From Desulfobacula sp. (GTDB lineage: Bacteria > Desulfobacterota > Desulfobacteria > Desulfobacterales > Desulfobacteraceae): DNA of 64,000 nucleotides. Below, in pieces: positions 5,146 through 45,865 of the stretch; within the stretch, counting starts at the first letter, position 1; the number at the start of each line of letters is the position of its first letter. The notes below the pieces were generated by a model. The model was given only the letters and a program-made list of their open reading frames with translations, was not told the origin of the DNA and searched no databases. Position numbers and translations under genes: made by a program. The stretch covers positions 1 to 64,000 of the forward strand of contig NZ_JAQYWD010000013.1 in assembly GCF_030145145.1 (NCBI RefSeq). Reading direction: 5' to 3'.

Positions 5146-5183
5146 CAAAAAACAAATCACTATTCTTATGGAGCTATTCCGTT

Positions 5184-5555: not shown

Positions 5556-5579
5556 CAGGGAGTTTTAATCCCCCAGTCT

Positions 5580-5660: not shown

Positions 5661-5722
5661 AAATAGACGAAGCTGATCAGGAGTTTTGATCTGTAGGATT
5701 GACGATTCAAAGATTTGAATGA

Positions 5723-6002: not shown

Positions 6003-6025
6003 ATATTAAGAGCAACCGTTTTTTT
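5995..6025 (+). terminator. riboswitch-controlled intrinsic terminator
   Basis: Perfect 8-bp stem GGTTGCTC/GAGCAACC (5995-6002, 6010-6017) with a 7-nt loop, then G and seven Ts. The 5' arm GGTTGC is also the closing strand of the riboswitch aptamer, so folding of the aptamer and of the terminator are mutually exclusive. Confidence 0.85.
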
Positions 6026-6049
6026 GAATTTAAGAAGAAGAGAAAGGAG

Positions 6050-6088
6050 ATGATGCCTATGATTGTTCAAATTTACAACCATATCTAA
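6050..6088 (+). CDS. possible 12-codon leader ORF
   Basis: ATG at 6050 (or 6053, 6059) after AGAAAGGAG encodes MMPMIVQIYNHI and ends at TAA 6086-6088. It lies between the riboswitch terminator and the main gene. A short translated ORF here may be accidental. Confidence 0.25.
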   Translation: MMPMIVQIYNHI

Positions 6089-6150
6089 AAAGAACGTTTC
6101 AATCCAGAGAATTAACTGACCAGTTTAAATTAATAATAAGGAGGTATTAT

Positions 6151-29426: not shown

Positions 29427-29484
29427 GATTAAAGCTAACGTCCGAAAGTTGAGTAAAAGATTCAATGAAACAGGAGAAGGGCGG

Positions 29485-30450
29485 ATGGACAGCCAGACCT
29501 TACAAAAAAAGCATCAACGACAAGCACAAATGCTGGTTGATAAAGTCAAAAAAAAATTCAGGCATTTTCACAAACGGTATAGAAAACAAAATATTTATAT
29601 CTTCAGGCTGTATGACTGGGATATACCGGAAATCAACGCGGTCGTGGACTGGTATGCCGGTCACCTTGTTGTGGGTGAATACAGCCGGAAACAATCCTTT
29701 CCCGGCTGGCTTTCCCTCATGGGCAGATCGGTGGCACGGGCGTTGGACGTCCCTGGTGAAAACCTGCACCTCAAAATCAGGCGGGCCGGTAAAAATGAAG
29801 GGAAAAGATACGAACGGATCGATCATACAAACCAGAAAATTGCCATGGGCGAAAGGGATTTCAAATTCTACATCAATCCAAATGATTATGTGGATACAGG
29901 CGTGTTCTCCGATCACCGGAACACCAGACAGATGGTGCGTGAAAGGGCATTTGACTCCCGTTTTTTAAACCTTTATTGCTATACCGGCTCATTTACCTGC
30001 TATGCCGCAAAAGGGGGTGCCAGACAGACGGTATCCGTGGATCGATCCGTAACCGCCATTAACTGGGCACAGGCGAACCTTGAACTGAACGGCCTGTCAG
30101 ATGCAAAACACATCCTGATCCAGGAAGACACCCTTGATTTTCTTACCACTGCCAAGCCCATGCACCAGGACTTTGATCTGGCCGTTGTCGATCCGCCTTC
30201 CTATTCAACGACGAGAAGAACAAATGGCTATTTTGATATTGCCAAGGATCACCCTCAATTGCTCAATGCTGTATTCAATCTCATGAAAACCGGTGCTAGT
30301 GTTTTTTTTTCCACGAATCATCAAGACTTTGCGTTAAAAACAAAAGACTTGACCGTAACGAATATCCAGGAAATTACGTCAAAAACCATCCCCGAAGATT
30401 ATCAGAACAAGCGAAGGCAAATTCATAGATGCTGGGAAATACAGGTATGA
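29485..30450 (+). CDS. rlmK: RlmK-like 23S rRNA methyltransferase
   Basis: 321 residues from ATG 29485, supported by GGAGAAGGGCGG upstream; a TTG at 29449 would lie in repeat-derived sequence. Features: the region around NDYVDTGVFSDHRNTRQMVR, SAM motif FLNLYCYTGSFTCYAA, acidic VSVDRS, and catalytic VVDPPSYS. This corresponds to the C-terminal half of E. coli RlmKL, which makes m7G2069 in 23S rRNA. The N-terminal half is encoded separately at 23495. Its stop overlaps the start of the following gene. Confidence 0.8.
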   Translation: MDSQTLQKKHQRQAQMLVDKVKKKFRHFHKRYRKQNIYIFRLYDWDIPEINAVVDWYAGHLVVGEYSRKQSFPGWLSLMGRSVARALDVPGENLHLKIRRAGKNEGKRYERIDHTNQKIAMGERDFKFYINPNDYVDTGVFSDHRNTRQMVRERAFDSRFLNLYCYTGSFTCYAAKGGARQTVSVDRSVTAINWAQANLELNGLSDAKHILIQEDTLDFLTTAKPMHQDFDLAVVDPPSYSTTRRTNGYFDIAKDHPQLLNAVFNLMKTGASVFFSTNHQDFALKTKDLTVTNIQEITSKTIPEDYQNKRRQIHRCWEIQV

Positions 30451-30995
30451 TATTCGATCCCTTTGAAAACCGGACCTGCAGGGACATTAGAAATAATCTG
30501 GGCCATGATTTTGTCAAGGCAATTCAGACAAAAGACCCTGGACCGTTTAAAAAGAATATTGCATCATATCCCTCACGGCAACCCAATGGCCCTGTAGCCA
30601 CGTATATCCGTCACCGAACGGATTGTTTTGAAACGATTTTTGATCAAATCATTTCCCATGGAAACCAACCGGATGGGGATATCATAATTTCAATTCTGTT
30701 ATGGAATCTTGAATTGTTTTTTGAATTTCATGAATGGCTGGAAACAGAGTGGCTGAGCGCTCATGGGGCCTGGAAAAACGCATTGCAGGCGCTGATTCTT
30801 TCCGCCATCGTCTATGAACTGCTGACATATGGCAGACGGCTTCCTGCAGAAAAAGTTGCCGCAAAGGCCCTGTTGCTTTTCAAACAGCACAAGGGCATTA
30901 TTCCTGATCTTTTTGATACAAATCTATTGATCTTAAAATTAACCGAACTTGACCCTGTTCCGCCTAAATTCAATATAAAACAACACTATTTTTAA
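30447..30995 (+). CDS. DUF309-like helical protein
   Basis: 182 residues from ATG 30447, which overlaps the preceding stop (ATGA). The central segment LELFFEFHEWLETEWLSAHG matches the F-x3-H-E-x2-E-x-W pattern of DUF309, a small all-helical family of unknown function. The C-terminus (FDTNLLILKLTEL) is less clear. Probably translated together with the methyltransferase. Confidence 0.65.
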   Translation: MIFDPFENRTCRDIRNNLGHDFVKAIQTKDPGPFKKNIASYPSRQPNGPVATYIRHRTDCFETIFDQIISHGNQPDGDIIISILLWNLELFFEFHEWLETEWLSAHGAWKNALQALILSAIVYELLTYGRRLPAEKVAAKALLLFKQHKGIIPDLFDTNLLILKLTELDPVPPKFNIKQHYF

Positions 30996-31005
30996 GGAGG
31001 AAGAT

Positions 31006-31461
31006 ATGGCCTTATTTCTTGTCCAGCACGGACTCAGCCTTTCAAAGGACCTAGACCCGGAAAAGGGACTTTCCAAAGCCGGTGAGGAAGTCACGCAGCG
31101 CATTGCCGATGTGGCAAAGGCCTATGCCATAAATGTGACAAAAATAGTTCATTCGAATAAAAAAAGAGCGGTCCAGACCGCCGCTATTTTCCAGGATACT
31201 TTGCAGCCAACTACCTCTCTGGAAAAGATGTCAGGGATTCAGCCCCTGGACCCTGTAATCCCCTTTGGAGATAGGATTGACCCAACGGCCAATCTTATGG
31301 TGGTGGGGCACCTGCCCTTTATGGAAAAACTGGTTTCGTATCTGACAGCAGGTATTCAGGATATCCGGGTCTACAAATTCCAGAATTCCGGGATTGTCTG
31401 CCTGGACCGGGAAGACAATGACTGGTATATCAAATGGACTTTGAACCCGACTATTTCCTAG
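31006..31461 (+). CDS. sixA: phosphohistidine phosphatase SixA-like
   Basis: 151 residues. The catalytic LVQHGLSLS (an RHG-type motif with Gln for Arg) sits at the N-terminus, and the second histidine lies in LMVVGHLPF. The short length fits SixA rather than phosphoglycerate mutase. SixA removes phosphate from histidine on phosphotransfer proteins. The Gln replacing the first Arg of the RHG triad is unusual and may lower activity. RBS AAGGAGG upstream. Confidence 0.75.
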   Translation: MALFLVQHGLSLSKDLDPEKGLSKAGEEVTQRIADVAKAYAINVTKIVHSNKKRAVQTAAIFQDTLQPTTSLEKMSGIQPLDPVIPFGDRIDPTANLMVVGHLPFMEKLVSYLTAGIQDIRVYKFQNSGIVCLDREDNDWYIKWTLNPTIS

Positions 31462-31472
31462 TGGAGGCTCCC

Positions 31473-31901
31473 ATGTATCTGCCAAACAGGAAAGGATGGC
31501 TTGCCGTTTTATTTATTGTTTTCACCCTGGCTGTTCCTTTTGCCATTATCTTTTATGTGTCCACGGAATCTTATAAAGACCGTCACCATGCCTGGCGTAA
31601 AAATTCTGAAACCGCACGCCTGCCCATCCGTTCAAAAATAACGGCAGACCAGGTATTGCTTGTGAAAAATGAAAAAATCATTATCCACCGTACCGGCCTT
31701 GTTTTCAAAGGATTAACAAACCAGCAGATACAGATTGATCTTTACCTGCTCGATTTGGACCCTGAGGTCCCCTATTCCCTGAATTTCTCTAGAAAGTCAC
31801 TGGTTGAGGGTATCCGGCTCGGCCATGGCATGTATCGCCTCCTTTCCGTAAAAGACACCCTGTTGAAACTCAAAATCCAAGGCGTTTATCCCACCCATTA
31901 A
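31473..31901 (+). CDS. small single-pass membrane protein
   Basis: 142 residues from ATG 31473 (GTGGAGG upstream). One transmembrane helix at about 9-29 (LAVLFIVFTLAVPFAIIF) is followed by a beta-rich extracytoplasmic domain. No family recognised. It starts 12 bp after sixA. Confidence 0.55.
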   Translation: MYLPNRKGWLAVLFIVFTLAVPFAIIFYVSTESYKDRHHAWRKNSETARLPIRSKITADQVLLVKNEKIIIHRTGLVFKGLTNQQIQIDLYLLDLDPEVPYSLNFSRKSLVEGIRLGHGMYRLLSVKDTLLKLKIQGVYPTH

Positions 31902-32099
31902 AAGCGGTCCATTGATTTAGGGACTCGGAAATAAATATTTACGCCATCTGGCTTGGCTTTCAGCGCGTCTTCTGCGTTGCATCAACGGGCACCTATTTTA
32001 AAAAAAACACCCCCTGGTTCAAATAAACATGGCTTTTGTGTTCTTTTCTATTTAAACTCTTGAACATCAGTTGGACGGACACATTTTCCGGAGATAATT

Positions 32100-32477
32100 A
32101 TGATAAAGCTAGTGATGGTTGGAATGGGAGGGTTTGCCGGATCCATCTGCCGGTACATGATCAGTGATGTATCCCAAAGGCTGTTCAATGATCCTTTTTT
32201 CCCTTACGGTACCTTGACCGTTAATGTGGTCGGATGTCTGTTGATTGGCTTATTGGGTGGATTATCTGAATCAAGACACCTCTTCACCCCTGAAATCCGT
32301 GCCCTGGTGCTCATGGGATTTCTAGGCGGATTTACCACTTTTTCAACCTTTGGATATGAGATATTTACGTTTGCCCGGGACGGGCAGTTTGTGTCAGCAC
32401 TGACAAACCTTCTGCTCCATCTAATCCTTGGTTTTGGTTCTGTCTGGCTTGGGTTTTCCATGTCTAAAGTATTATAA
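32100..32477 (+). CDS. crcB: fluoride exporter FluC/CrcB
   Basis: 125 residues with four hydrophobic helices. Family motifs GGFAGSICRYMIS, GTLTVNVVGCLLIG and GFLGGFTTFSTFGYE are present; the paired Phe residues and TTFSTF line the fluoride pore. It works as a dual-topology dimer in the inner membrane. No fluoride riboswitch is recognisable in the 200 bp upstream. Followed 8 bp later by its frequent partner DUF190. Confidence 0.93.
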   Translation: MIKLVMVGMGGFAGSICRYMISDVSQRLFNDPFFPYGTLTVNVVGCLLIGLLGGLSESRHLFTPEIRALVLMGFLGGFTTFSTFGYEIFTFARDGQFVSALTNLLLHLILGFGSVWLGFSMSKVL

Positions 32478-32485
32478 AGGAGGGT

Positions 32486-32824
32486 ATGGGTATGGTTCTT
32501 CCGGAAAAAGGGCATTTGCTCAGGATCTTTATCGGAGAAAGTGATAAACGAAACGGCATCCCGCTTTACGAATGGATTGTAAAAAAAGCAAGGGAACAGG
32601 GATTGGCCGGGGCAACAGTGACCCGGGGCATCTTAGGGTTTGGTGCACATTCAAGGATTCATACCACAAAAATCCTGAGGCTTTCAGAAGATATGCCCAT
32701 GATCATAGAAATTGTCGATACCCTGGAAAAAATTGATAATTTCTTACCGCTCATTGATCATACCATTAAAGAGGGCCTGGCCATTATAGAGGAAATCCAC
32801 ATTCGGTTCTACCGGACACGTTAG
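32486..32824 (+). CDS. DUF190 family protein
   Basis: 112 residues, start at 32486 or 32492 (AAGGAGGG upstream). Core: LLRIFIGESDKRNGIPLYEW, GLAGATVTRGILGFGAHS and PMIIEIVDTLEKI, the PII-like fold of DUF190. These proteins are commonly encoded beside crcB and are thought to modulate the exporter; the mechanism is not known. Confidence 0.85.
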   Translation: MGMVLPEKGHLLRIFIGESDKRNGIPLYEWIVKKAREQGLAGATVTRGILGFGAHSRIHTTKILRLSEDMPMIIEIVDTLEKIDNFLPLIDHTIKEGLAIIEEIHIRFYRTR

Positions 32825-32834
32825 GCGATTTTTA

Positions 32835-32902
32835 TAGCAATTTTCATTATGACGACAACCAAACCGGGTCAGGCAGCTATTGCGTTTTATAATGAATTGC
32901 TG
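32835..32902. mobile_element. 68-bp deleted derivative of the CAGCAATTCT MITE family
   Basis: Terminal arms TAGCAATTTTCATTAT and ATAATGAATTGCTG, with one CGGGTCAGGC inside. The flanks CGATTTTTA and CGGTTTTTG agree at 7 of 9 positions, compatible with an old target duplication. Confidence 0.5.
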
Positions 32903-32985
32903 CGGTTTTTGATAACGGATTGATTTGATGGGCTGTCAATGCTATAACCGCTTACCAGAAGACTGAACGTTACAAGGACACCAAG

Positions 32986-33399
32986 ATGACGGATTCAAAG
33001 AGGAAAGTACACCATTTTTCAGCCCGGGTGTATTACGAAGACACTGACCATTCAGGGGTTGTATACCATGCAAATTATTTAAAATTCTTTGAACGGGCCA
33101 GGGAAGATATCATTGGGATCACTGTCCTTGCCGACATGTGGCATCAGCATGAAATCGGTTTTGCCGTTTACAACGTCACCATCAAATACCATGACGGGGC
33201 AGTTTTCGGAGATCTCCTGGACATCAGAACCACCGTGAAAAAAGAAGGCAGCTACAGGATTGTTTTTTTCCATGAAGCCTGGCGGCCGAATGGATCAAAG
33301 CCGGCTGTCACCTGTACCCTGGAACTTGTCTGCCTGGGACCGAACAAAAAATTAATACCCATTCCGGATTTAGCGTTCTTGATGGGTGTGGAAACGTAA
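32986..33399 (+). CDS. ybgC: YbgC-type acyl-CoA thioesterase
   Basis: 137 residues, hot-dog fold. The signature VYYEDTDHSGVVYHANYLKF contains the catalytic Asp, and FFERARED and VYNVTIKYHDGAVFGD follow. These enzymes hydrolyse short- or long-chain acyl-CoA. The tol-pal genes that usually accompany ybgC are not nearby. Confidence 0.88.
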   Translation: MTDSKRKVHHFSARVYYEDTDHSGVVYHANYLKFFERAREDIIGITVLADMWHQHEIGFAVYNVTIKYHDGAVFGDLLDIRTTVKKEGSYRIVFFHEAWRPNGSKPAVTCTLELVCLGPNKKLIPIPDLAFLMGVET

Positions 33400-33537
33400 T
33401 CCTTTTGCATTTGTCAGGGGACTCCTGACGTCCTTATCCCTCTTTAACTGCCATGTCGCTGACAGTAAAAATCACTTAAATTCCCCATCGATTCTATCTA
33501 TATGAATATCGCAATCTATTAAAATACTCTTTTTTTA

Positions 33538-33564
33538 TTGACAACCACATCCTTGCATTATACT
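33538..33564 (+). promoter_or_regulatory. candidate promoter of the hydrogenase operon
   Basis: TTGACA (33538-33543) and TATACT (33559-33564) with a short 15-bp spacer, in the AT-rich 300-bp gap upstream of hysB. The gap otherwise shows no gene. Confidence 0.35.
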
Positions 33565-33702
33565 CATAATTACTATCTGGCACAATAAAATTAGGCATAT
33601 TTTGTACAAGGATTGACACGGATTCAAAAACAACAGGTGAGATATAACAAAAAATCAGGTGAAAATGGTTCATTAATTTTTAACAGTATCAAGGAGGTGT
33701 CC

Positions 33703-34659
33703 GTGAAAGACAAACTGATGGTATTGGATGAGCAGCAAAAGCAAACAGGGGTTTCCAGAAGGGCTTTTTTGAAAACCATTACAGGAACAGCGGCTGGAAT
33801 CGGTATTTCCCAAGTGTTCAATCCAGTGCTTATTTCAGCAATGGAAAAGGCCCTTGAAACCCATCCGGTTCTCTGGATTCAAGGGCAAAGCTGTACGGGC
33901 TGCTCCGTTTCTCTGTTGAACAGTGTTGACCCTTCGATTGCCGATATCCTTCTCAAAGTGATCAGTCTTCAATTTCATCCCACGATAATGGCTGCTGAAG
34001 GTGGGGTCGCCATGGAAAATCTATTTAAGATTGCCGAAGCCTACAACGGAAAATTCTCTCTGGTCGTTGAGGGAGCCATTCCTGTAGCTGCAGATGGTAA
34101 ATTCTGTATTGTTGGCGAATTTAATCATCAAGAAATGACCATGGTGGACCTTGTCAAAGACCTGGGTAAAAAAGCCGGTTCGGTTCTTGCGGTGGGTGCC
34201 TGCGCCGCATATGGCGGCATTCCGGCTGCGGAAGGCAATGTCACCGGCGCCACCGGCGTTATGGATTTTTTTAAACTGTATGGCATTCAAACTCCGGTTG
34301 TGAACATCCCCGGTTGTCCGCCGCATCCGGACTGGATTGTGGGATCCATTGCCCATCTGTTAACCAAAGGTCTGCCGGAACTGGATGATGATGGACGTCC
34401 GGTCATTTTCTATGGCAATAACATCCATGACAATTGCCCCCATGTTGAGGAATACGATGCCGGGGAAATGGCCATGACACTCTCCGATGCAAAAGGCTGC
34501 CGTATGGATCTGGGATGTAAAGGTCCGGATACCTATGCGGACTGTTACAAACGCAAATGGAACAGCGGCATGAACTGGTGTGTGGACAATGCCGTGTGTA
34601 TCGGGTGTGTTGAGCCCGGCTTTCCAGATGCCTCATCCCCCTTCTATGAACCCGCATAG
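33703..34659 (+). CDS. hysB: periplasmic [NiFeSe] hydrogenase small subunit
   Basis: 318 residues, GTG start at 33703 chosen because AAGGAGGTG lies 3-11 bp upstream; an upstream TTG adds 30 residues without support. A Tat signal SRRAFLKTITG is present, so the folded heterodimer is exported. Iron-sulfur ligands include CTGCSVSLL, VGACAAYGGIPA, PGCPPHPDWIVG, CPHVEEYD and CIGCVEPGFPD, as in group 1 hydrogenases. It passes electrons from the active site of the large subunit encoded 40 bp downstream to a cytochrome c3-type acceptor. Confidence 0.92.
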   Translation: MKDKLMVLDEQQKQTGVSRRAFLKTITGTAAGIGISQVFNPVLISAMEKALETHPVLWIQGQSCTGCSVSLLNSVDPSIADILLKVISLQFHPTIMAAEGGVAMENLFKIAEAYNGKFSLVVEGAIPVAADGKFCIVGEFNHQEMTMVDLVKDLGKKAGSVLAVGACAAYGGIPAAEGNVTGATGVMDFFKLYGIQTPVVNIPGCPPHPDWIVGSIAHLLTKGLPELDDDGRPVIFYGNNIHDNCPHVEEYDAGEMAMTLSDAKGCRMDLGCKGPDTYADCYKRKWNSGMNWCVDNAVCIGCVEPGFPDASSPFYEPA

Positions 34660-34699
34660 CAAAATATCCAAAACTTTTTAAACCTGAGGAGGTTTTATT

Positions 34700-36211
34700 A
34701 TGGCAGGCTGTAAACCACAAGCTGCTCCGGTGGGAGCCGGAAAAAAAATTAAGATTGCCATTGATCCGTTAACCCGGATTGAGGGTCACCTTAAAGCTGA
34801 AGTTGAAGTGAAAGACGGTGTTGTTGTTGATGCCAGAATATTTGGCGGTATGTTCCGGGGTTTTGAACAGATATTGATCGGCAGGGACCCCAGGGATGCG
34901 ATCCAGATTACCCAGCGGATCTGCGGCGTCTGCCCGACGGCCCATGCCACGGCATCTGCCCTGGCACTGGATGATGCGTTCAATGTGACACTCACTGAAA
35001 ACGGCAGAATTGCAAGGAACCTGATTTTAGGGGCCAATTTTTTGCAATCCCATATTCTTCATTTCTATCATCTGGCTGCATTGGATTATGTGAATGGTCC
35101 TGATGTTGCCCCGTTCGTCCCAAGATATGCAAAAAACGATGTCCGTGTTTCCAAAGACATTAACGACATTGCCGTGGGCCAATACCTTGAAGCCCTTGAA
35201 ATCAGAAAAATTCTCCACGAGATGGTCGCCCTTTTGGGGGGAAAAATGCCCCATGTTCAGGGGATTGTTGTGGGAGGAACCACAGAAATTCCCACCCGGG
35301 AAGCGTTAAATGCCTATGCGGATCGTTTCAAGATTGTTAAAAAATTTATCATGGAAAAATATCTCCCCATCGTTTACCTGCTGGCAGGCCCCTACGGGGA
35401 TCTTTTGAAAACCGGCGGCGGATATCACAATTGTGTTGCCTGGGGGGTATTCCCAATGGATAGCGCGGGCAACACACTTCATAAAAGAGGGGTTTTTACC
35501 GAAGGTAAGGACTATCCGGTTAATACAGCTCTCATTAAAGAATATGTAAAATATTCTTATTTTGATGATGCCACAACGGGCTTAACCCCCTCCCAGGGAA
35601 AAACCGTTCCTGCCCCCGACAAAGAAAGGGCTTACAGCTTTATCAAGGCTCCCAGATACAATAACAAACCCCATGAAGCCGGACCCCTTGCAAGAATGTG
35701 GGTCACCAATCCGGAGCTGTCCAAGATCGGCCAGGAAAAACTGGGGGTCAAAAACATGCGGGATATCGGAGACGCGGCATTCTCTATTCTCGGCAGACAT
35801 GTTGCCCGGGCGGAAGAAACGGCCATGGTGGCGGGTGCTGTTGAACAATGGCTGGCAGAAGCCGTGCCCGGCAAAGAGACCTATGTTTCTGCACCCATCC
35901 CGGATTCATCCGAAGGACTTGGGCTCACTGAAGCCCCCCGGGGTGCATTGCTTCACTACATTAACATTAAAGATAAAAAAATTGCCAATTACCAGGTCAC
36001 TTCGGCCACCATCTGGAATGCCAACCCCATGGATGACATGGGCCAGAGAGGCCCCATGGAGCAGGCCCTGATTGGGGTTCCGGTTCCTGACACTGAAAAC
36101 CCGGTGAACGTGGGACGGCTGGTCCGCTCCTTTGACCCCTGACTGGGATGTGCCGTCCACGTGCTGGACGCAGACACCGGCAGAAAAATCAAAGTAGAAA
36201 TTCCATTATAA
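34700..36211 (+). CDS. hysA: [NiFeSe] hydrogenase large subunit, selenocysteine at UGA 36140
   Basis: Read through the in-frame TGA at 36140-36142, the protein has 503 residues. N-terminal ligands lie in RICGVCPTAHATAS. The C-terminal ligand motif becomes DPULGCAVH (DPUxxCxxH), followed by a 16-residue tail VLDADTGRKIKVEIPL that is removed after the His during maturation, then TAA at 36209. Stopping at the TGA would give 480 residues without the second pair of nickel ligands, a non-functional enzyme. A hairpin right after the TGA could act as SECIS. The [NiFeSe] type is typical of sulfate reducers and oxidises H2 in the periplasm. RBS TGAGGAGG is 8 bp upstream. Confidence 0.93.
36143..36180 (+). 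promoter_or_regulatory. candidate bacterial SECIS element
   Basis: Directly 3' of the UGA, CGTCCA/TGGACG forms a 6-bp stem with the 5-nt loop CGTGC (36154-36170), placed about 11 nt from the UGA. Bacterial SECIS hairpins lie at this spacing inside the coding sequence and bind SelB. Confidence 0.6.
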
Positions 36212-36240
36212 TTTAGATGGATTTTACCTGAACAAAACTT

Positions 36241-36273
36241 AAGGGGATGATGTTTTTCATCCCCTTTTTTTTT
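36241..36273 (+). terminator. intrinsic terminator after hysA
   Basis: AAGGGGATGA/TCATCCCCTT stem with a 6-nt loop and a nine-T tract. Confidence 0.9.
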
Positions 36274-36304
36274 ACTCGAAAATCTTTGATGAACAGGGTA
36301 AGTA

Positions 36305-36811
36305 ATGATAACAATTGACAAAATGGAACGTCTATCCAAAATGAAAAAACTGTTAGTACTGGGGGTAGGCAATATCCTCATGACGGACGAAGGAGCCGGA
36401 GTGCATGCGGTTCATGAGTTCTGGAAAGAAAAAGACACATATGATGACACCCTGGTTGATTTTATAGACGGCGGAACCTTTACCCAGGACATCTTCTACC
36501 TGTTTGAAACCTACGAACACGTCCTGGTGTTGGATATTGTCAGGGCCGGGCATGAAGCCGGCACCCTTTACAGCCTTGACGAAGATGATCTGGTAAAAAA
36601 TGAAAAACAGATGTTATCCCTTCATGATATCGATCTGCTGGACTCTCTGGACATGGCCCAGATGAGAGGACACCGGCCCAAGCTGAAGGTGGTGGGGATT
36701 GAACCGGACAAAATTGACTGGGGAACCCAAATGACCCCGGCACTTGTCAAGGCGTTTCCATCCTTCATGCAAGTGGCAAGAAAACAGATTGAAACCCTTT
36801 TAAACGAATAA
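36305..36811 (+). CDS. hysD: hydrogenase maturation endopeptidase (HysD/HybD type)
   Basis: 168 residues from ATG 36305; an alternative start at 36341 gives the usual N-terminus MKKLLVLGVGNILMTDEGAG. Nickel-sensing residues are Glu in MTDEGAG, Asp in VLDIVRAG and His in LSLHDIDLLD. The enzyme cleaves the C-terminal tail of the large subunit after nickel insertion. It sits 93 bp after hysA, beyond a terminator, so it may have its own promoter. Confidence 0.85.
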   Translation: MITIDKMERLSKMKKLLVLGVGNILMTDEGAGVHAVHEFWKEKDTYDDTLVDFIDGGTFTQDIFYLFETYEHVLVLDIVRAGHEAGTLYSLDEDDLVKNEKQMLSLHDIDLLDSLDMAQMRGHRPKLKVVGIEPDKIDWGTQMTPALVKAFPSFMQVARKQIETLLNE

Positions 36812-36879
36812 TTACGACTGACTGCCTGATCGAGAACGCCGTGTTTGGATGGCTCGCAGAGGATTTATTCAAACACCAC

Positions 36880-37890
36880 TTAACAAATTCTGGGCAACTG
36901 GTCTCCCGTCAGCATGTCAATGATTCTCACGCCGCCAATGGCGGTATGAAGGAAGACGCTGCCAGGGTCTTCCCGGGTGACGTCGCCAATGATCATGGCC
37001 TCTTTTCCAAACTCATCCTGCTGGATGATCTCCAACGCTTTTTGGGCATCCCTTTCCGGGACAAAGGCGATCAATTTACCTTCATTGGCAATATAGAGCG
37101 GATCAAACCCCAGCAACTCGCAGGTTCCCCGGACCGCTCCCCTGATGGGCAAAGAGAGTTCATCTATTTTCATTCCCACCCGGGATTGAGCCGCAATCTC
37201 ATTTAACGTTGTCCCCAGGCCCCCCCTTGTGGGATCCCGCAGCACATGGACATCACAGTCAGACTGGACCAGGGACTGAACCATTTTATTTAACGGGGCT
37301 GAATCGGTTTGGATATTTGAATCAAACTGCAGTCCTTCCCGGGAACTTAAGACAGCAATCCCATGATCCGCAATGGTACCGCTGACAATAATTTTATCTC
37401 CGGGTACGGCATTGCAGCCGGACACATCCGTGTGAGGGGGGATCACGCCGATCCCGGACGTATTGATAAAAATCTTATCGGCTTTTCCCTGGGGAACCAC
37501 CTTGGTATCGCCGGTGACAATCCTGACCCCGGCCTTTTGGGCCGCCCTTGCCATGGACTCAAGAATTGTCTTTAACGTCTTTACCGGCAGCCCTTCTTCA
37601 ATAATCAGGCCCACACTGATAAACCTGGGGATGGCGCCGCACATGGCAATATCATTGATGGTACCGTTCACGGCCAGATCTCCGATATTTCCGCCGGGAA
37701 AGAAAATCGGGTCCACCACATACGAGTCAGTGGAAAAAGCAAGTTTGGTGCCGTCAATATCCAGGGTTGCACCGTCATCCTGCTTTGATAATTCAGGATT
37801 TTCAAACAAGGGCAGGATCATATCGGAAAACAACGCGTGGGAAACCTTTCCCCCGGACCCATGGTCGAGTAATATTTTTTCTTCAGTCAT
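36880..37890 (-). CDS. hypE: hydrogenase maturation protein HypE
   Basis: 336 residues. AIR-synthase-like ATPase with LDHGSGGKVSHAL, GGNIGDLAVNGTINDIAMCG and VHVLRDPTRGGLGTTLNEIA. The protein ends PRIC, with the C-terminal cysteine that accepts the carbamoyl group from HypF and is dehydrated to thiocyanate, the source of the cyanide ligands of the NiFe site. Last gene of the hypC-F-D-E run. Confidence 0.95.
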   Translation of the reverse strand: MTEEKILLDHGSGGKVSHALFSDMILPLFENPELSKQDDGATLDIDGTKLAFSTDSYVVDPIFFPGGNIGDLAVNGTINDIAMCGAIPRFISVGLIIEEGLPVKTLKTILESMARAAQKAGVRIVTGDTKVVPQGKADKIFINTSGIGVIPPHTDVSGCNAVPGDKIIVSGTIADHGIAVLSSREGLQFDSNIQTDSAPLNKMVQSLVQSDCDVHVLRDPTRGGLGTTLNEIAAQSRVGMKIDELSLPIRGAVRGTCELLGFDPLYIANEGKLIAFVPERDAQKALEIIQQDEFGKEAMIIGDVTREDPGSVFLHTAIGGVRIIDMLTGDQLPRIC

Positions 37891-37907
37891 TTTTTTTTCC
37901 TGTTCCC

Positions 37908-38993
37908 CTAACTATATCGGTAAAATGCCGCACAAGACCCTTCACTGGAAACCATGCAGGGGCCCACGGGTGTCATGGGGGTGCATTTTGTCTTATAAAG
38001 GGCACAGTCGTAAGGTGTTTTCAACCCCATGAGAATTTCCCCACAGGCACATCCTTTTGGTTCAGGCACATCGGGCATGTCCATTCCAAATTTTATGGCG
38101 GCATCAAATTTTTTAAACGCTTGTTTCAGCTGCATGCCACTGGAAGGAATTTGGCCGATCCCCCTCCAGGTAGCATCACAGATCTCAAACACCTGGTTCA
38201 TGATCTGTTTTGCCTTTTCATTACCGGCATCCGAAACTGCCCGGGCATAGGCATTTTCAAGGGCAGGGGCGCCTGCCTCATTCTGCTGGATCAACCGAAG
38301 GATGGCCGTTAAAATATCAACAGGCTCAAATCCTGCAATCACGGACGGAATATCATATTTCTCAAAGGTATCCTGATACGCACGGGTTCCGGTAATCACA
38401 GAAACATGACCCGGAAGGATAAACCCGTCAATGGAGACACCCTCTGTTTCCATCAATGCAGCCAGGGCCGGGGGGGTGAGTTTATGGGCCGAATAAATGG
38501 AAAAGTTATCCAGTTTTTCCTTGATTCCCATAAGAATGCCGGCCGCAATGGTGGGGATGGTGGTTTCAAATCCCACGGCACAAAATACCACCTCTTTGGC
38601 TTTATTCTCCCGGGCAATGGCAAGGGCATCAGATATCGAATAAACGATCCTCACATCAGCGCCTGACGCTTTCTCCCGGGCCAGGGTCGACCGGGATCCC
38701 GGCACGCGCATGAGATCCCCAAAGGTGGTCACAATCACATTCTTCACCCTTGCAAACGCGACAAAGGCGTCCATATCTCGTTGCGCAGTCACACACACCG
38801 GGCATCCCGGACCGGACAGCAGCGTAATCCCTTCGGGTAACACGCTCCGGATGCCATGCCTGAAAATGGACGTGGTATGGGTACCACACACTTCCATCAA
38901 TCTTAGATTTTTTTTGCTGACCAAATGAATTTTTTTAACAAGACCCCTTGCCAGCAAGGCATCCCTGTATTCTTCAATATATTTTAAACTCAT
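37908..38993 (-). CDS. hypD: hydrogenase maturation protein HypD
   Basis: 361 residues. Motifs MEVCGTHTTSIFRHGIR, LLSGPGCPVCVT, FETTIPTIA and GCACGEILMG hold the conserved cysteines for the [4Fe-4S] cluster and for Fe(CN)2CO assembly together with HypC and HypE. The start is adjacent to the end of hypF. Confidence 0.95.
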   Translation of the reverse strand: MSLKYIEEYRDALLARGLVKKIHLVSKKNLRLMEVCGTHTTSIFRHGIRSVLPEGITLLSGPGCPVCVTAQRDMDAFVAFARVKNVIVTTFGDLMRVPGSRSTLAREKASGADVRIVYSISDALAIARENKAKEVVFCAVGFETTIPTIAAGILMGIKEKLDNFSIYSAHKLTPPALAALMETEGVSIDGFILPGHVSVITGTRAYQDTFEKYDIPSVIAGFEPVDILTAILRLIQQNEAGAPALENAYARAVSDAGNEKAKQIMNQVFEICDATWRGIGQIPSSGMQLKQAFKKFDAAIKFGMDMPDVPEPKGCACGEILMGLKTPYDCALYKTKCTPMTPVGPCMVSSEGSCAAFYRYS

Positions 38994-41318
38994 CTATTCT
39001 TTTCCTTCCCTGGCAGCTGCAATCACTGCTTGCCCCAGACAAATCCCCCCATCCCCAAAGGGAACCTTTGTATGGGTATATACGGTCAAATTGTTTTCTT
39101 CAAGGGCCCTGATCATGAGGTTCAAAATGATATCGTTATTAAACACACCACCTGAAAGGACTATTTTTCTAATCCCGGTCTGCTGGCTCACCGTTACCGC
39201 TGCCATCCGGAATGCCTGGACAAGGGTATGATGAAACGTTGAGCTGATGGTACCGGCAGATCTGTTCTGTCTTAATTCCCCTATCATCTGCCGGATACCG
39301 GGCATTAAATTAATTTCAAAGGAATCGTCCGGGTCATTATGGAGACTTGCTGCCAGTTCGAATGCATAGCCCTCCCCTGTGGAATTTTCATCTGCCAGGG
39401 CTTCCAGTTCCATTGCCGCCTGGCTTTCATGGGAAATTTTATGCCGGATACATAAAAGAGAGGCCACCGCATCAAACAGCCGTCCTGCACTGGATGTCAA
39501 CGGGGAGTTTACGTTTTTTTCCATCATTTTGCCGACAAAAGACAATTTTTCTCTCCCCATCTCCCGGACATAGGGGAGATCCAGGGTTAAAAAATCATTT
39601 CCCATGGCCTGGTAAAGAACCGATGCCGCCATACGCCAGGGCTCCAGAACGGCAGCATCGCCACCGGGCATTTTAAGATAAGACAGGTGGGCTTTCCGCT
39701 TGAAGCCTTTTTGCGTGCATAACAGGATTTCCCCGCCCCAGATGTGGCCGTCTGTCCCATACCCGGTGCCATCCAGGGTGATGGCAATCACCGCTTCATC
39801 CAGATTATTTTCCGCCATACAGGCGGCAGCATGGGCATGGTGATGCTGAATCGCCACTTTTTTTACGGTCTTCTGGGCCAGGGCATATGCGGTACTGTAA
39901 TATCCCGGGTGCATATCATGGGCAATGATCGCCGGCTGGATATCGAACATCTGTTGTAAATGATCAATACTGTCTTGATATACCTCATAACTCTTTACAT
40001 TCTCCAGATCCCCGATATGGGGACTTAAAAATGCATGATGATTCCGGGTCAGACAAATCGTATTTTTGAGCCCGGCGCCACATCCCAGAATTTTCGGTAA
40101 TTTCTGTTTTAAAACAATGGGCAGGGGGGCATACCCCCTTGAACGGCGGATAAATCTTGTCCGGCCGGCCTGGACCCGGACAATGGAATCATCTGCCCGA
40201 AAACAAATCTCCCGGTTGTGTAATAGAACATAATCCGCCATGGAAGAAACCGCGTCCAGTGCATCCTCATTCTCAATGGAAAGCGGTTCTCCTGAACGGT
40301 TACCGGAAGTCATCACCAGAACGCAAGGTCCTTTTTCCAGCAGCAAATAATGCAGGGGCGTATAGGGCAGCATGATCCCGAGGCAAGGGTTAAAGGGCGC
40401 CACTTCCGATGCCAGTCCCGGGATATGCCCCTCCTTGACCTGCTTTTTGGTCAACAGGACAATGGGTCGGGAAACAGATTCCAACAATTCCTTTTCCCGG
40501 CCACTGACATGAACGTGGTCAAACAAAACCGAAGCAGATTCTGCCATCAGGGCAAAGGGCTTATGCGGGCGGCCTTTTCTTTGCCTCAGGCGCTGAACCG
40601 CTGACTGGTTTGCGGCATCGCAGGCCAGATGAAATCCGCCAAGCCCCTTTACGGCAACAATCCTGCCCCGGCTTAAATACTGGGCAGCCAAGGTGATGGC
40701 TGTTTTTGAACCTGATACAATCCGGTTACCCCCCGGGTCTGTCAACGACACCTGGGGACCGCATTCCGGGCAGGCATTGGGCTGGGCATGAAACCGTCTG
40801 TTCAGCGGGTCATCATATTCCTGTTGACAAGCCGCACACATCTTAAAGTGTCGCATGGACGTCTGGGGCCGGTCATAGGGAATATCTTCAATAATCGTAT
40901 ACCGGGGACCGCAATTGGTACAATTGATAAATGGGTATTGGTACCGCCGGTCCCGGGGATCTTTCATTTCAGACAGGCAGTCCCGGCAAAGGGTTACATC
41001 GGGAGAAATTAAAGTACGCCGTTGCTTGGACGTCTGGCTCTTCACAATTTGAAAACAAGAAAATTTCCGGGATGGTGCATCATTGGTGCTAATATGGGTC
41101 ACTGACGCCAGCAACGGGCTCTTATGATATACCTCATTGGAAAATTGCTCAATTTGTTCAGGCAATCCTTCCAAGAGGACACACACGCCAAGGGATGTAT
41201 TGGACACCTCACCGGTGAGGTGGTATTTTTTTGCCAGACCGAATAAAAAAGGTCTAAACCCTACGCCTTGAACCACACCACTGATGTCCAGCCGTTTTAC
41301 AACCCGCGACCCCTTCAT
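38994..41318 (-). CDS. hypF: carbamoyltransferase HypF
   Basis: 774 residues, standard length. Order: acylphosphatase domain (GVVQGVGFRPF, residues 1-95), two zinc fingers (CRDCLSEM...CTNCGPRY and CAACQQEY...CPECG, about 110-190), YrdC-like domain (GGFHLACDA) and Kae1-like domain (HHHAHAAACMAENN). It converts carbamoyl phosphate and ATP to carbamoyl-adenylate and carbamoylates HypE. Lies between hypC and hypD on the minus strand. Confidence 0.95.
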   Translation of the reverse strand: MKGSRVVKRLDISGVVQGVGFRPFLFGLAKKYHLTGEVSNTSLGVCVLLEGLPEQIEQFSNEVYHKSPLLASVTHISTNDAPSRKFSCFQIVKSQTSKQRRTLISPDVTLCRDCLSEMKDPRDRRYQYPFINCTNCGPRYTIIEDIPYDRPQTSMRHFKMCAACQQEYDDPLNRRFHAQPNACPECGPQVSLTDPGGNRIVSGSKTAITLAAQYLSRGRIVAVKGLGGFHLACDAANQSAVQRLRQRKGRPHKPFALMAESASVLFDHVHVSGREKELLESVSRPIVLLTKKQVKEGHIPGLASEVAPFNPCLGIMLPYTPLHYLLLEKGPCVLVMTSGNRSGEPLSIENEDALDAVSSMADYVLLHNREICFRADDSIVRVQAGRTRFIRRSRGYAPLPIVLKQKLPKILGCGAGLKNTICLTRNHHAFLSPHIGDLENVKSYEVYQDSIDHLQQMFDIQPAIIAHDMHPGYYSTAYALAQKTVKKVAIQHHHAHAAACMAENNLDEAVIAITLDGTGYGTDGHIWGGEILLCTQKGFKRKAHLSYLKMPGGDAAVLEPWRMAASVLYQAMGNDFLTLDLPYVREMGREKLSFVGKMMEKNVNSPLTSSAGRLFDAVASLLCIRHKISHESQAAMELEALADENSTGEGYAFELAASLHNDPDDSFEINLMPGIRQMIGELRQNRSAGTISSTFHHTLVQAFRMAAVTVSQQTGIRKIVLSGGVFNNDIILNLMIRALEENNLTVYTHTKVPFGDGGICLGQAVIAAAREGKE

Positions 41319-41324
41319 GAACCG

Positions 41325-41576
41325 TTACACGTCATCATTCAAACCATGGGTCTGTTGAGGATCGGCAGCCAGTATCCGGCGCATATCTTCCAGGGTCTGA
41401 AGGGCAGCCACTTCATCCACCTTGTTGATGGCAAATCCTGCATGGACAATGACATACTCCCCGATCTTCACATCATCCAGAAGCAGGATACTGGTTTCCC
41501 GGACCACACCGTCCACATCCACCCGGGCAACCGTGCTATTGATCTCAATAATTTTAGACGGTACAGCTAAGCACAT
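41325..41576 (-). CDS. hypC: hydrogenase maturation chaperone HypC
   Basis: 83 residues starting MCLAVPSKIIEI, whose Cys2 is the functional residue that binds the iron centre and the large-subunit precursor. The rest (GEYVIVHAGFAINKVDE) fits the OB-like fold. First gene of the minus-strand hyp operon, convergent with the hydrogenase operon. Confidence 0.95.
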   Translation of the reverse strand: MCLAVPSKIIEINSTVARVDVDGVVRETSILLLDDVKIGEYVIVHAGFAINKVDEVAALQTLEDMRRILAADPQQTHGLNDDV

Positions 41577-41661
41577 AGTGTTTACCCCTATTTAAAGTTG
41601 AGGGATGAATATACCACAAAATGACCATTGAACAAACCTTATTTTAAACTTGTCTTCTGTA

Positions 41662-41685
41662 TTGAATGTGATATATTACATCCAA
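41662..41685. promoter_or_regulatory. candidate operator upstream of the GntR regulator
   Basis: TTGAATGT-GATATATT-ACATCCAA: 8-bp arms with one mismatch about an AT-rich centre, 83 bp before the regulator gene and 86 bp from hypC. GntR/FadR-type proteins often bind such dyads. It could serve either direction. Confidence 0.4.
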
Positions 41686-41767
41686 TGTAGTATTCATGGA
41701 TATGATATTCCCGGGTTTATCCGGGAACGCATTTTAAATGACAACAAACCGAAAAAAGGCTTAAACC

Positions 41768-42442
41768 ATGCCCCTCCCTGTAAAAAACAATCAAATACAT
41801 CGTCCTTCCATGCGGGATGAGGTATACAACAAACTGCTGACCTGGATCATGGAAGGGGTTCTCCGTCCCGGGGAAAAATTATTGGACAAGGAACTCGCCG
41901 AACATATGGGTGTGAGCCGAACCCCGGTCCGGGAAGCCCTGCGACGACTTGAAGACAAAGACCTGGTTGAATCCTCGGCAAACCGTTGGACACGGGTATC
42001 TGAAATTTCCTCCCGGGAACCGGAGATGATTTATCCGATCATATGGACCTTGGACGGACTGGCAGCCGCCCTGGCCCTAAAAACCCTGGTTGCCAAAGAT
42101 TTTGAAAAAATGGAACAGGCCAACGCAGTGCTTAAATCCGCCCTTGAAAACAATGATCCCGTGGCCGCATCCAAAGCAGATGCCGCTTTCCACGATGTAT
42201 ATATCGAACGATCACAAAATAACCATCTCATTAAAATCCTTCAGGACCTGAAGGTCCGATACCGCCGATTTGAGGTGTTCTACTTTGAGGGAACCGCCCA
42301 TGCCAAAAACTCCCTTGAAGACCATAAGACCATCATCGCCACTTTAAAAGCAGGAAATTCAGACCTGGCCATCAAAACCATCCACTCAAACTGGCAAAAC
42401 AGCCTTGAGCGACTCAAAGCCGGGACACGCAAACAAAAATAA
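41768..42442 (+). CDS. GntR-family transcriptional regulator (FCD type)
   Basis: 224 residues. Winged helix (about 12-75) with LRPGEKLLDKELAEHMGVSR and TPVREALRRLEDKDLVE, then an all-helical FCD ligand domain (about 85-215) with DAAFHDVYIERSQNNHL and the metal-site histidines (FHDV, EDHKTII). It probably controls the PLP enzyme that starts 61 bp downstream and itself. The ligand is unknown. Confidence 0.88.
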   Translation: MPLPVKNNQIHRPSMRDEVYNKLLTWIMEGVLRPGEKLLDKELAEHMGVSRTPVREALRRLEDKDLVESSANRWTRVSEISSREPEMIYPIIWTLDGLAAALALKTLVAKDFEKMEQANAVLKSALENNDPVAASKADAAFHDVYIERSQNNHLIKILQDLKVRYRRFEVFYFEGTAHAKNSLEDHKTIIATLKAGNSDLAIKTIHSNWQNSLERLKAGTRKQK

Positions 42443-42503
42443 CCCGTCATGCTATTTAATTGTCAAAAAATTGAAAAACACTGTAACAACTTAAGGAAAT
42501 CCC

Positions 42504-43970
42504 ATGATTGATTTAACCATCACCCCTGAAATTCTGGAAAAAAACATTGCCTTTTGCCGGGAAAAAAAAATTATCCTGCCTACCTTTGCCATGATGAAAA
42601 ATCCGGAAACCATACCAACAGCCATGAAAGATCAACTCAAAACCATTGGTTTATGGGATCTTCACTCGGCCAACCTCTTCAGGATAACCTGGCATAATGA
42701 ACAAAAAGATTCAGGCGGCCTCTTTGGGGGGGCAAATCACTTTATCCTTCCCCCGGAACTCACCGGGTGCCGTGCCAATATCATCATGCTGTCAGGACGC
42801 TGGTTTCCCACAGGCGCTCACAAAGTCGGTGCGACGTATGGTTGTCTGGCCCCCGGCCTTGTCACCGGGCAGTTTGACCCCCAGCGAACAAAGGCCGTAT
42901 GGCCTTCCACCGGCAATTACTGCAGGGGCGGAGCCTATATTTCAGCCCTTCTGGCATGCAATGCCATTGCCATTCTCCCTGAAGAAATGTCCCAGGAGCG
43001 GTTTGAGTGGCTCAGTAAAATCGCCGGCCAGGTCATTGCAACGCCGGGATGCGAGTCCAATGTCAAAGAAATTTTTGACAAATGCTGGGAATTGAGGAAC
43101 TCTGGAGAAGACCTTCAAATTTTCAATCAATTTGATGAAATGGGCAATCCATTGTGGCATTACACCGTCACCGGCAATGCCATTGAGGAAATCTTATCCG
43201 TTTATCTCAAGGACAACAAGCGCCTTGCCGGTTATATTTCCTCTTCCGGATCAGGCGGCACACTGGCTGCCGGATACTACCTGAAAAAGCAATTCCCCCA
43301 TACAAAAATAGCCGTGGCAGAGGCGCTCCAGTGCCCGACACTTCTCCAGAATGGTTTCGGCGGCCACCGCATTGAGGGCATCGGAGACAAACATGTCCCC
43401 TGGGTCCACGACTGCAAACAAACGGATTTTGTCATCGCTGTGGATGATGAAGTCCCCATGCGGCTGTTACGTCTCTTTAACGAGGGCATTGGAAGACAGG
43501 CTCTCATAGCAACGGGTGTGGAGGCTGATCTGGTCAATAAGCTGGACCTGCTCGGGATCTCAGGCATCGGCAACATGGTGGCTGCCATCAAATTTGCCAA
43601 ATACAATGAACTGACCGAAGACGATTATGTGGTGAGCATTGCAACGGATTCCATGCAGCTCTACGGTTCAAGGCTCACTGAATTAACCCAAGAACGGGGG
43701 ACTTACTCTCAAACAGATATCCAGCGGGATCTCCAGCTATTGGAATCCGTTGGCATGGATCACATGAAAGAGCTGACCTATTATGACAAAAAAACAATCC
43801 ACAACCTCAAGTACTATACCTGGATCGAGCAGCAGGGCAAAGATGTCAACGAGCTCAACGACCAGTGGTATGACCACGACACCTACTGGACCAGCACCTT
43901 TGACCAGGTAGAACAAATTGACCAGCTGATCACCCAGTTCAATGACCGGGTGGGGCTTCTAAAAGATTAG
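42504..43970 (+). CDS. PLP-dependent fold-type II lyase or synthase
   Basis: 488 residues. The Schiff-base lysine is in GRWFPTGAHKVGATYG, the substrate loop in WPSTGNYCRGGAY and the phosphate-binding glycine loop in SSSGSGGTLAAGY. These place it in the cysteine synthase / threonine synthase / tryptophan synthase beta superfamily, but it is longer than cysteine synthase and I cannot assign a substrate. A ~50-residue C-terminal extension is rich in Asp and Tyr. Located behind a GntR regulator, so probably catabolic. Confidence 0.65.
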   Translation: MIDLTITPEILEKNIAFCREKKIILPTFAMMKNPETIPTAMKDQLKTIGLWDLHSANLFRITWHNEQKDSGGLFGGANHFILPPELTGCRANIIMLSGRWFPTGAHKVGATYGCLAPGLVTGQFDPQRTKAVWPSTGNYCRGGAYISALLACNAIAILPEEMSQERFEWLSKIAGQVIATPGCESNVKEIFDKCWELRNSGEDLQIFNQFDEMGNPLWHYTVTGNAIEEILSVYLKDNKRLAGYISSSGSGGTLAAGYYLKKQFPHTKIAVAEALQCPTLLQNGFGGHRIEGIGDKHVPWVHDCKQTDFVIAVDDEVPMRLLRLFNEGIGRQALIATGVEADLVNKLDLLGISGIGNMVAAIKFAKYNELTEDDYVVSIATDSMQLYGSRLTELTQERGTYSQTDIQRDLQLLESVGMDHMKELTYYDKKTIHNLKYYTWIEQQGKDVNELNDQWYDHDTYWTSTFDQVEQIDQLITQFNDRVGLLKD

Positions 43971-43992
43971 CCGGCTGTTGGCGTTTATTCTT

Positions 43993-44077
43993 GGGGTCAG
44001 GCTTTCTTTATGGCACTTTTTACCCGTCTGGTCATGAAATAGTGATAAAAAGCACCATAAAAAAAGCCTGACCCCGT
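43993..44077. repeat. GGGGTCAGGC palindromic element, copy 4
   Basis: Nearly identical to the copy at 29341. Its conserved right flank (ATTAAAGCTCAAGACCGAAAG) supplies the stop codon and last residues of the phosphatase gene on the minus strand. Confidence 0.8.
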
Positions 44078-44080
44078 CCA

Positions 44081-45865
44081 TTAAAGCTCAAGACCGAAAG
44101 TTGGGTTACATACTTTAACAACAATCAGCGTGATATCGTCCTGACGCTTTTCTCCTTTCCGGAACCGATTGCAGGCATCCATGACAGCGGTTAATATCTG
44201 CTGAGAGGTCAAATGGGCATTTTCCCGTATTATCCTGGACAAATTATCTTTTCCAAATCGTTCTCCATGAGAATTGTGGGCTTCCCAGATACCATCTGTA
44301 TAAAGGAACACAATCTGTCCCTCCGACAACCCGGCAATTTCATTTTCCGTGTATTGCCAGGTATCATCCACCCCCAGGGCAATGCCAGGGCCTTTCAGCT
44401 CAATCACCGTCTTTTGTTTGTCGTCATATAACAATGCCGGATCCTGTCCTGCCCGTACCCATTTCAGGGATTTTTTGCCTGTGTCCATCTCAATGCAGAA
44501 AAGGGTCATAAAATTGCCGGAATCTTTTACATCCTGACACAACTGGCGGTTGACATCGGTTATCACCTGGGCCAGGCGTCCCGGCATGGCCGAGCGTTGG
44601 CGAAAAAAGGCCCTTGACGTCGCCATGAGAAGTGCAGAGGCAATGCCATGCCCGGAAACATCCCCCAAAACAATTCGAATTCGATTTTTCAAGGTATTTT
44701 CAGGCAAAAGGAAATCATAATAATCTCCACCGGTTTCATCACAATAAATGCTGGTACCGGCAATATCGAGCCCGGGAATGTCAGGATTTTTTTGGGGCAG
44801 CAGATTCTGTTGAATCTGCCTTGCCAGACCCAGGGACCGTTGCATTATTTCCCTTTCCTGGAGGCCCTGGGTCATTTCATTCACCACATCCCCGGCATAA
44901 CCAATTTCATCATTGGACACGATTTGAACCTTTTTATCAAATTGTCCTCGCTGAACCGCTTGAAGTACCCTTGCCAAATCTTTCATCGGATCAACAATAT
45001 TATGGCTGAGCAATCGGTTTAATTGGTTGGAAGAAATCAGGGTATAAACAAACAGCACCAAGGTAAAAACGATGACCCCGCGACCATAGGTGACGGCGGA
45101 CACCGGATGTGTCTCAAGTTCCCATTGGAGCGTCAGCAATGTCACCAGCAGAATCATTATGGGAATCACGGCCCCTAACCGGTTGACCAGTTTGATTCGT
45201 CTGGCAATGGATATTTTTGCTGTCCCTTTCAGCTTATTTAGCTGCCCTTTGGGGAAAAAAAAGGGAATCAGCTGTCGGCGGGAAATGGCATCTATTCTCT
45301 GGGAAGCTATGGCGGAAGCAATCAAGCCGACCATACTGGCCCTGGCGGAAAGGATGATCACCGTCCGGTGATCTGACATCCCGGCAAAAGCGGCAAATAA
45401 GCCAACAAGACTCGGTATCAGAATCCACAGGGACACATTAACCGGAACAAAGAGAAAATGAAGATTTAAAAGTCTTCTTTGTGCTGCTTCAATCTGGTCA
45501 CGCAGGGGCATCCCTTTTTTTTTAAACAGCACCAGGCAGTCAGAAATCGGTTTCAGCATGATGCCAATACCCGTTAGGACGAATAGGTATGAAAGACTCA
45601 GTACAAAAACCAGCCTGGGGAAAAATACAGTTACCCCTATTTCCCAAGTCAACGACTGATGTTGACCCAGAATTCGAGATCTAATAAAGTCCAGCGGCGT
45701 AAAAAAATTGAGCACCACAACCACTAAAATACCAATGGTCGTTGCCAGAACCCCGACAATATAATACGGCGCCAGGGTAATCTCAGATAGGGTTGGTTTG
45801 GGTGTACTTTTATCCGAAGCCATTTCCCTGGAGATCGTCCCATTATGTTTTCCATGCATTTGCAA
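44081..45865 (-). CDS. membrane SpoIIE-type (PP2C) phosphatase with HAMP domain
   Basis: 594 residues. Five or six transmembrane helices in the first ~285 residues, a HAMP linker (about 295-345, VSNDEIGYAGDVVNEM), then a SpoIIE/RsbU-type phosphatase (about 370-585) with DETGGDYYDF, LGDVSGHGIASALLMA, FLYTDGIWEAH and RQDDITLIVVK. Such proteins dephosphorylate anti-anti-sigma factors in partner-switching pathways. No partner is adjacent. The last residues (CNPTFGLEL) and stop come from the flank of a repetitive element. Confidence 0.85.
   Translation of the reverse strand: MQMHGKHNGTISREMASDKSTPKPTLSEITLAPYYIVGVLATTIGILVVVVLNFFTPLDFIRSRILGQHQSLTWEIGVTVFFPRLVFVLSLSYLFVLTGIGIMLKPISDCLVLFKKKGMPLRDQIEAAQRRLLNLHFLFVPVNVSLWILIPSLVGLFAAFAGMSDHRTVIILSARASMVGLIASAIASQRIDAISRRQLIPFFFPKGQLNKLKGTAKISIARRIKLVNRLGAVIPIMILLVTLLTLQWELETHPVSAVTYGRGVIVFTLVLFVYTLISSNQLNRLLSHNIVDPMKDLARVLQAVQRGQFDKKVQIVSNDEIGYAGDVVNEMTQGLQEREIMQRSLGLARQIQQNLLPQKNPDIPGLDIAGTSIYCDETGGDYYDFLLPENTLKNRIRIVLGDVSGHGIASALLMATSRAFFRQRSAMPGRLAQVITDVNRQLCQDVKDSGNFMTLFCIEMDTGKKSLKWVRAGQDPALLYDDKQKTVIELKGPGIALGVDDTWQYTENEIAGLSEGQIVFLYTDGIWEAHNSHGERFGKDNLSRIIRENAHLTSQQILTAVMDACNRFRKGEKRQDDITLIVVKVCNPTFGLEL

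Follow-up and report, generated by a model that had tools for sequence, protein, structure and literature searches.

A probable selenocysteine codon within the [NiFeSe] hydrogenase large subunit gene hysA of Desulfobacula sp.

Does the UGA codon that interrupts a hydrogenase large subunit gene of Desulfobacula sp. end the protein, or is it read as selenocysteine (Sec)? The gene lies in the window that we analyzed, the first 64,000 nucleotides of contig NZ_JAQYWD010000013.1, and its frame runs from ATG 34700 through 480 codons to a TGA at codon 481 (Table 1). When the frame is read through this TGA, 22 more codons follow before TAA 36209-36211, giving a product of 503 residues, and LGCAVH stands directly after the UGA, making DPULGCAVH, followed by a tail of 16 residues. 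An earlier note, made from the sequence alone, had described the interrupting TGA, this motif, the 16-residue tail and TAA 36209, and we found all of them exactly as described. The same note had warned that automatic annotation would shorten the protein by 23 residues. This holds for a conventional call, which yields the 480-residue ORF and drops 23 residues, and passages of PMC4730141 document such truncation for database entries, but NCBIfam now contains dedicated "exception" models for HysA, HysB and HysD. The corrected gene model of hysA thus has 503 residues, not 480.

Table 1 Features of the hys locus and the adjoining hyp genes, in window coordinates.
Feature	Position	Strand	Basis
hysB, [NiFeSe] small subunit	33703..34659	+	NF045520 531.5 bits, cut-off 470; Pfam PF01058, PF14720
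hysA, [NiFeSe] hydrogenase large subunit, 503 codons with UGA as predicted Sec	34700..36211	+	NF045518; PDB 4kl8, 1cc1, 5jsu, 2wpn
In-frame UGA codon 481, predicted Sec of DPUxxCxxH	36140..36142	+	Frame; PDB alignment; TGA in relatives
SECIS-type hairpin, 6 bp CGUCCA/UGGACG, loop CGUGC	36154..36170	+	Fold, conservation, published bSECIS constraints
C-terminal tail VLDADTGRKIKVEIPL, 16 codons, removal on maturation expected	36161..36208	+	4kl8, 1cc1, 2wpn chain ends match His487
Intrinsic-terminator-like hairpin AGGGGATGA...TCATCCCCT plus T run, between hysA and hysD	36239..36275	+	By eye
hysD, NiFeSe hydrogenase maturation protease	36305..36811	+	NF045519 226.4 bits, cut-off 190; PF01750
hypE	36880..37890	-	TIGR02124 459.5 bits, cut-off 251.6
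hypD	37908..38993	-	TIGR00075 469.2 bits, cut-off 192.8
hypF	38994..41318	-	TIGR00143 819.9 bits, cut-off 466.1
hypC	41325..41576	-	TIGR00074 81.1 bits, cut-off 48

The read-through product passes the NCBIfam model for HysA (NF045518) with 835.8 bits against a cut-off of 780, and the two partners of the NiFeSe type, the small subunit and the maturation protease, are encoded on either side of it, each above the cut-off of its own model (Table 1). Its top matches in the PDB are 4kl8 and 1cc1 (712 and 706.9 bits), followed by 5jsu and 2wpn. We take 2wpn and 5jsu to be the periplasmic [NiFeSe] hydrogenase of Desulfovibrio vulgaris, and 1cc1 and 4kl8 to be that of Desulfomicrobium baculatum. The residue printed as X in 4kl8, 1cc1 and 2wpn aligns with position 481 of HysA, where 5jsu prints C. 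The earlier note had proposed the alignment to D. vulgaris HysA as a check, and the non-standard residue of 2wpn at this position speaks in favor of Sec. The chains of 4kl8, 1cc1 and 2wpn terminate at the residue matching His487, while 5jsu continues into the tail, so that the query is covered over residues 1-487 by 2wpn and up to residue 501, past the TGA, by 5jsu_B.

The likeness to the D. vulgaris enzyme extends over the full-length alignment, the Sec position, LGCAVH and the start of the tail (VL). At the other end of the protein, the N-terminus of 2wpn, MSGCTPKAAPAGA, is matched by MAGCKPQAAPVGA in the window HysA, a region reported to be lipoprotein-type in D. vulgaris HysA. The two differ at tail residue 490, which is His in 5jsu and Asp in the window HysA, and in the lineage of their hosts. 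The D. baculatum enzyme shares the non-standard residue at the same place and a mature end at the matching His; it differs by short stretches that the window protein lacks, of 2 and 6 residues near query positions 151-153 and others further on.

[NiFeSe] hydrogenases carry DPUxxCxxH at their C-terminal nickel motif. The earlier note had expected a "fourth set" of nickel ligands at the TGA; the place is right, but DPULGCAVH is the second of two motifs, which together provide four ligands. These are presumably Cys75 and Cys78 in RICGVC (residues 73-78) together with U481 and C484. As judged from its sequence, the product is a [NiFeSe] hydrogenase large subunit HysA of an already known kind, correctly read. 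The HydDB table places the [NiFeSe] variants under group 1a.

A gene of this kind calls for a Sec machinery, and a complete set of Sec genes is present in this genome of Desulfobacula sp. (5.66 Mb in 89 contigs; only matches above a curated or gathering cut-off were counted). One match each was found for selA (603.1 bits, cut-off 267.9), selB (346.7 bits, cut-off 242.25) and selD (366 bits, cut-off 125), as well as one tRNA-Sec (selC; score 76.5, gathering threshold 47), which ARAGORN also calls as tRNA-Sec with anticodon TCA. The earlier note had asked for this search and had named the absence of all sel genes as the main argument that would count against Sec; since SelA, SelB, SelD and tRNA-Sec are all encoded, this argument falls away. 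A passage of PMC8318568 describing a Sec system in bacteria near Desulfobacula prompted us to check pyrrolysine as well, and the model for the C-terminal part of PylS gave sub-cut-off matches only in the genome, the best at 26.3 against a cut-off of 178.15. General background on Sec in bacteria is given in parts of PMC1794560. The selD gene is itself a candidate selenoprotein gene, with one in-frame TGA in ASGUAAK (positions 1501-2424 of a locus on contig C74 of this genome).

We then compared codon 481 among relatives, for which one genome per species was scanned, 109 matches were confirmed and the best 80 of the 109 were kept as loci. These 80 loci fall into 44 with TGA at codon 481, all 61-90% identical to HysA, and 36 with a Cys codon, all at 46% identity or less; the position thus shows the Sec/Cys pairing of homologs. 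LGCAVH and the tail follow the TGA in all 44 loci that are at least 61% identical. Record titles among these 44 include Desulfobacula, Desulfobacter, Desulfamplus, Desulfobacterium, Desulfomicrobium and Desulfovibrio, and in the protein tree the row nearest to the window is a Desulfobacula record (support 98/92). Given that 5jsu_B aligns beyond the TGA and that the same TGA occurs in all 44 of these loci, it is not there by chance. In three of the 44 (L059, L062 and L064), a second TGA directly after the tail looks like the true stop, so that a single gene would use UGA both for Sec and as a stop, its meaning being set by context.

When 291 genomes of the class were searched separately, 47 matches exceeded the HysA cut-off, that of the window's own genome included, and each contains exactly one TGA. 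We fetched 30 of the 47 as loci, and 16 of these 30 proteins were identical to ones fetched earlier, which means that the two samples overlap. HysA is far from universal, as in 244 of the 291 genomes, some of the same genus, nothing passed the cut-off. One TAA, TAG or TGA is also present in some weaker matches; in the one inspected, from the window's own genome (contig C14, see below), the stop is where a tail-less gene truly ends.

The 6-bp hairpin that the earlier note had seen just 3' of the UGA is present at 36154-36170. Its sequence is CGTCCA-CGTGC-TGGACG, and 17 nt separate the UGA from the loop. When a longer stretch is folded to minimum energy, the inner 5 bp pair and the C before them is bulged. 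The bSECIS model given in the legend to Fig. 2 of PMC13188914 has a loop of 3-9 nt, a stem of 4-16 bp and a distance of 16-37 nt from the UGA, and the same source further gives a G in the first two loop positions and a minimum free energy (MFE) of at most -7.5 kcal/mol. In place of the bacterial SECIS predictor named in the earlier note, we compared the hairpin by hand with these published constraints. It agrees with every one, having a 5-nt loop with G in the second position, 6 bp, a distance of 17 nt and, for the 45 nt after UGA 36140, an MFE of -16.6 kcal/mol.

Against protein-preserving shuffles, the window stretch has a fold z of -1.99, with 24 of 500 shuffles as good or better. Among the 81 rows formed by the window and the best 80 of the 109 loci, 63 were scored; the 18 dropped were 4 UGA genes whose 72-mer duplicated another and 14 Cys genes that end directly behind the motif. 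The median fold z was -1.34 in the UGA genes (n=41) versus -1.08 in the Cys genes (n=22), with p=0.015 for rows that are not independent. Folding energy alone is weak support for a SECIS, the UGA and Cys genes differing modestly. In Rfam, no gathering-level match was obtained anywhere in the window, and a relaxed search of 36050-36320 (E up to 10) gave no SECIS-named match, its two best weak matches corresponding to the terminator-like hairpin downstream.

The evolution of the hairpin tells more. We compared 75 UGA genes (the window, the 44 loci and the 30 loci of the second search), which comprise 59 distinct proteins and 48 distinct 54-mers and are related by descent. The inner 5 pairs form in 75 of 75, as does the closing C-G, and the loop reads CGTGC in 70 and CGTGT in 5. 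One pair varies together with the protein: where the tail has Asp (GAC), the facing Val codon is GTC (50 of 50), and where it has His (CAC), the Val codon is GTG (25 of 25), no other combination being found. Three loci titled Desulfomicrobium sp. (L058, L061 and L062) have the GTG...CAC form of the hairpin, unlike the window. Over the whole gene, the first 45 rows use all four Val codons (the hairpin codon included), the share of GTC being 24% in the Asp group and 30% in the His group, and that of GTG 20% and 33%, respectively.

The codons themselves are also unusually constant. In these same 45 rows, synonymous diversity is lowest at codons 485-490 (0.103, gene mean 0.492) among 481 six-codon stretches, those containing codon 481 being left out of the scan; the lowest stretch outside the hairpin region is the gene start (0.178). 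At 167 fully conserved residues with degenerate codons, only 5 codons are wholly invariant, and four of them, 482, 485, 487 and 488, come directly after the UGA. The protein tree requires at least two changes of the Asp/His state on well-supported branches, and the best larger tree three, with the Val codon changing each time. A sign test on independent pairs has 2 pairs and p=0.5, two to three changes being too few events for a formal test of this kind. The 75-gene comparison is a clean case of pair-keeping change within a coding region, supporting a bacterial SECIS.

It is possible, at somewhat less than an even chance in our estimate, that the cleaved tail is under two codes, its first residues VHVL[D/H] being conserved for the protease and also because their bases form the hairpin that binds SelB, so that Asp-to-His would be tolerated only if GTC changes silently to GTG as well. 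Such a double lock may help to explain why Cys versions were not seen in this clade, in which all 44 of the loci at least 61% identical have TGA.

On these direct observations, namely the sequence, the families, the Sec machinery, the conservation of the UGA and that of the hairpin with its pair-keeping change, we place the following reading. Region 33703-36811 is almost certainly a hysB-hysA-hysD locus for a periplasmic [NiFeSe] hydrogenase, in which Sec would be inserted at UGA 36140 by means of the hairpin, the tail cleaved and the enzyme exported by the Tat route; Sec insertion, SelB binding, cleavage, export and activity are all inferred from established knowledge of the family. A ribosome arriving at UGA 36140 would meet the hairpin 36154-36170, to which SelB carrying Sec-tRNA-Sec would bind, and after insertion of Sec translation would proceed to UAA 36209. 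HypC, HypD, HypE and HypF, whose genes adjoin the locus, would help to build the metal center, Cys and Sec of HysA would bind nickel, and HysD would then cut off the 16-residue tail after His487. The folded HysA would leave the cytoplasm together with HysB, by means of the Tat signal of HysB.

The plainest alternative is that UGA 36140 is a true stop, leaving a 480-residue protein or a decaying pseudogene. Standard ORF calling does end there, but LGCAVH and the tail persist in all 44 loci at least 61% identical (among the best 80 of 109), the codons beyond the UGA are unusually constant and show pair-keeping changes, and the frames of HysB, HysD and the hyp genes have no internal stop. A true stop would also delete the C-terminal metal-binding motif, which provides nickel ligands in this family. 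We consider this alternative very improbable. That a Cys codon, TGC or TGT, was turned into TGA by a sequencing or assembly error might be suspected from the Cys found at this position in 36 of the 80 related loci (the best 80 of 109). The probability is negligible, since the same TGA stands in other genomes: it is in all 44 loci at least 61% identical, which come from other public records, and in the 47 over-cut-off matches, a set that includes the window's own genome and overlaps the 44-locus sample.

The UGA could instead be translated, as Trp or Cys for instance, through general reassignment or leaky read-through, and not as SECIS-directed Sec. TGA ends just one of 13 window genes checked (29449-45865), which counts in favor of this reading. 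Against it stand the complete set of SelA, SelB, SelD and tRNA-Sec, the paired changes that maintain the hairpin, and L059, L062 and L064, where the second TGA after the tail reads naturally as the true stop and UGA would be context-dependent; we regard this reading as extremely improbable. The proposal of the earlier note, that UGA 36140 encodes Sec, is supported by the HysA, HysB and HysD models, the PDB alignment, the sel genes and the conservation of TGA in relatives, and we retain it as the highly probable reading.

Passages of Tamura et al. 2016 (PMC4730141) report that [NiFeSe] large subunits are truncated at the opal codon in databases, that they can be read through to a second stop, and that SECIS elements were detected; the hosts named there include Desulfotignum, Desulfobacter and Desulfobacterium, whose putative enzymes show the same situation of truncation, read-through and SECIS as the window HysA. 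The latter is therefore a further case of a known phenomenon. The term Desulfobacula is absent from the main text of that paper, and Desulfobacula HysA was not named in the titles or abstract openings returned by our search of the open literature. According to part of PMC10362691, the SECIS of D. baculatum is unlike that of E. coli, and no version of it suited to E. coli could be made that left the protein unaltered. The [NiFeSe] enzymes, a class already well known, attract interest as H2 producers that tolerate oxygen better.

By eye, the hysB gene starts with GTG downstream of AAGGAGG and has a twin-arginine-like motif, SRRAFLK, near its N-terminus. The family match of HysD starts at residue 14, and the true start of hysD may therefore be downstream. 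Because a terminator-like hairpin lies between hysA and hysD, hysD may have its own promoter or a lower expression; this hairpin (36239-36275) is covered by sub-gathering Rfam matches only.

The genome encodes a second hydrogenase. On contig C14 (1448-8000 of the stretch 1-8000), a tail-less [NiFe] large subunit with Cys stops right after DPCLACAVH; behind it come a gene for a small subunit whose start is Tat-like, two genes with MCP-signal domains and one with an Hpt domain. Among the best 80 of the 109 loci, whose stretches differ in length, ORFs similar to these chemoreceptor genes are near 10 of the 14 tail-less Cys genes, 0 of the 22 tailed Cys genes and 0 of the 44 Sec genes. In the HydDB material consulted, the only putative chemotactic class belongs to the [FeFe] enzymes, and the sources returned by the literature search, as far as their excerpts extend, gave no description of a tail-less [NiFe] hydrogenase in this arrangement. 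From its sequence and neighbors, the C14 hydrogenase may be exported and sense H2 for a chemosensory pathway, and its association with chemoreceptors may merit a separate study.
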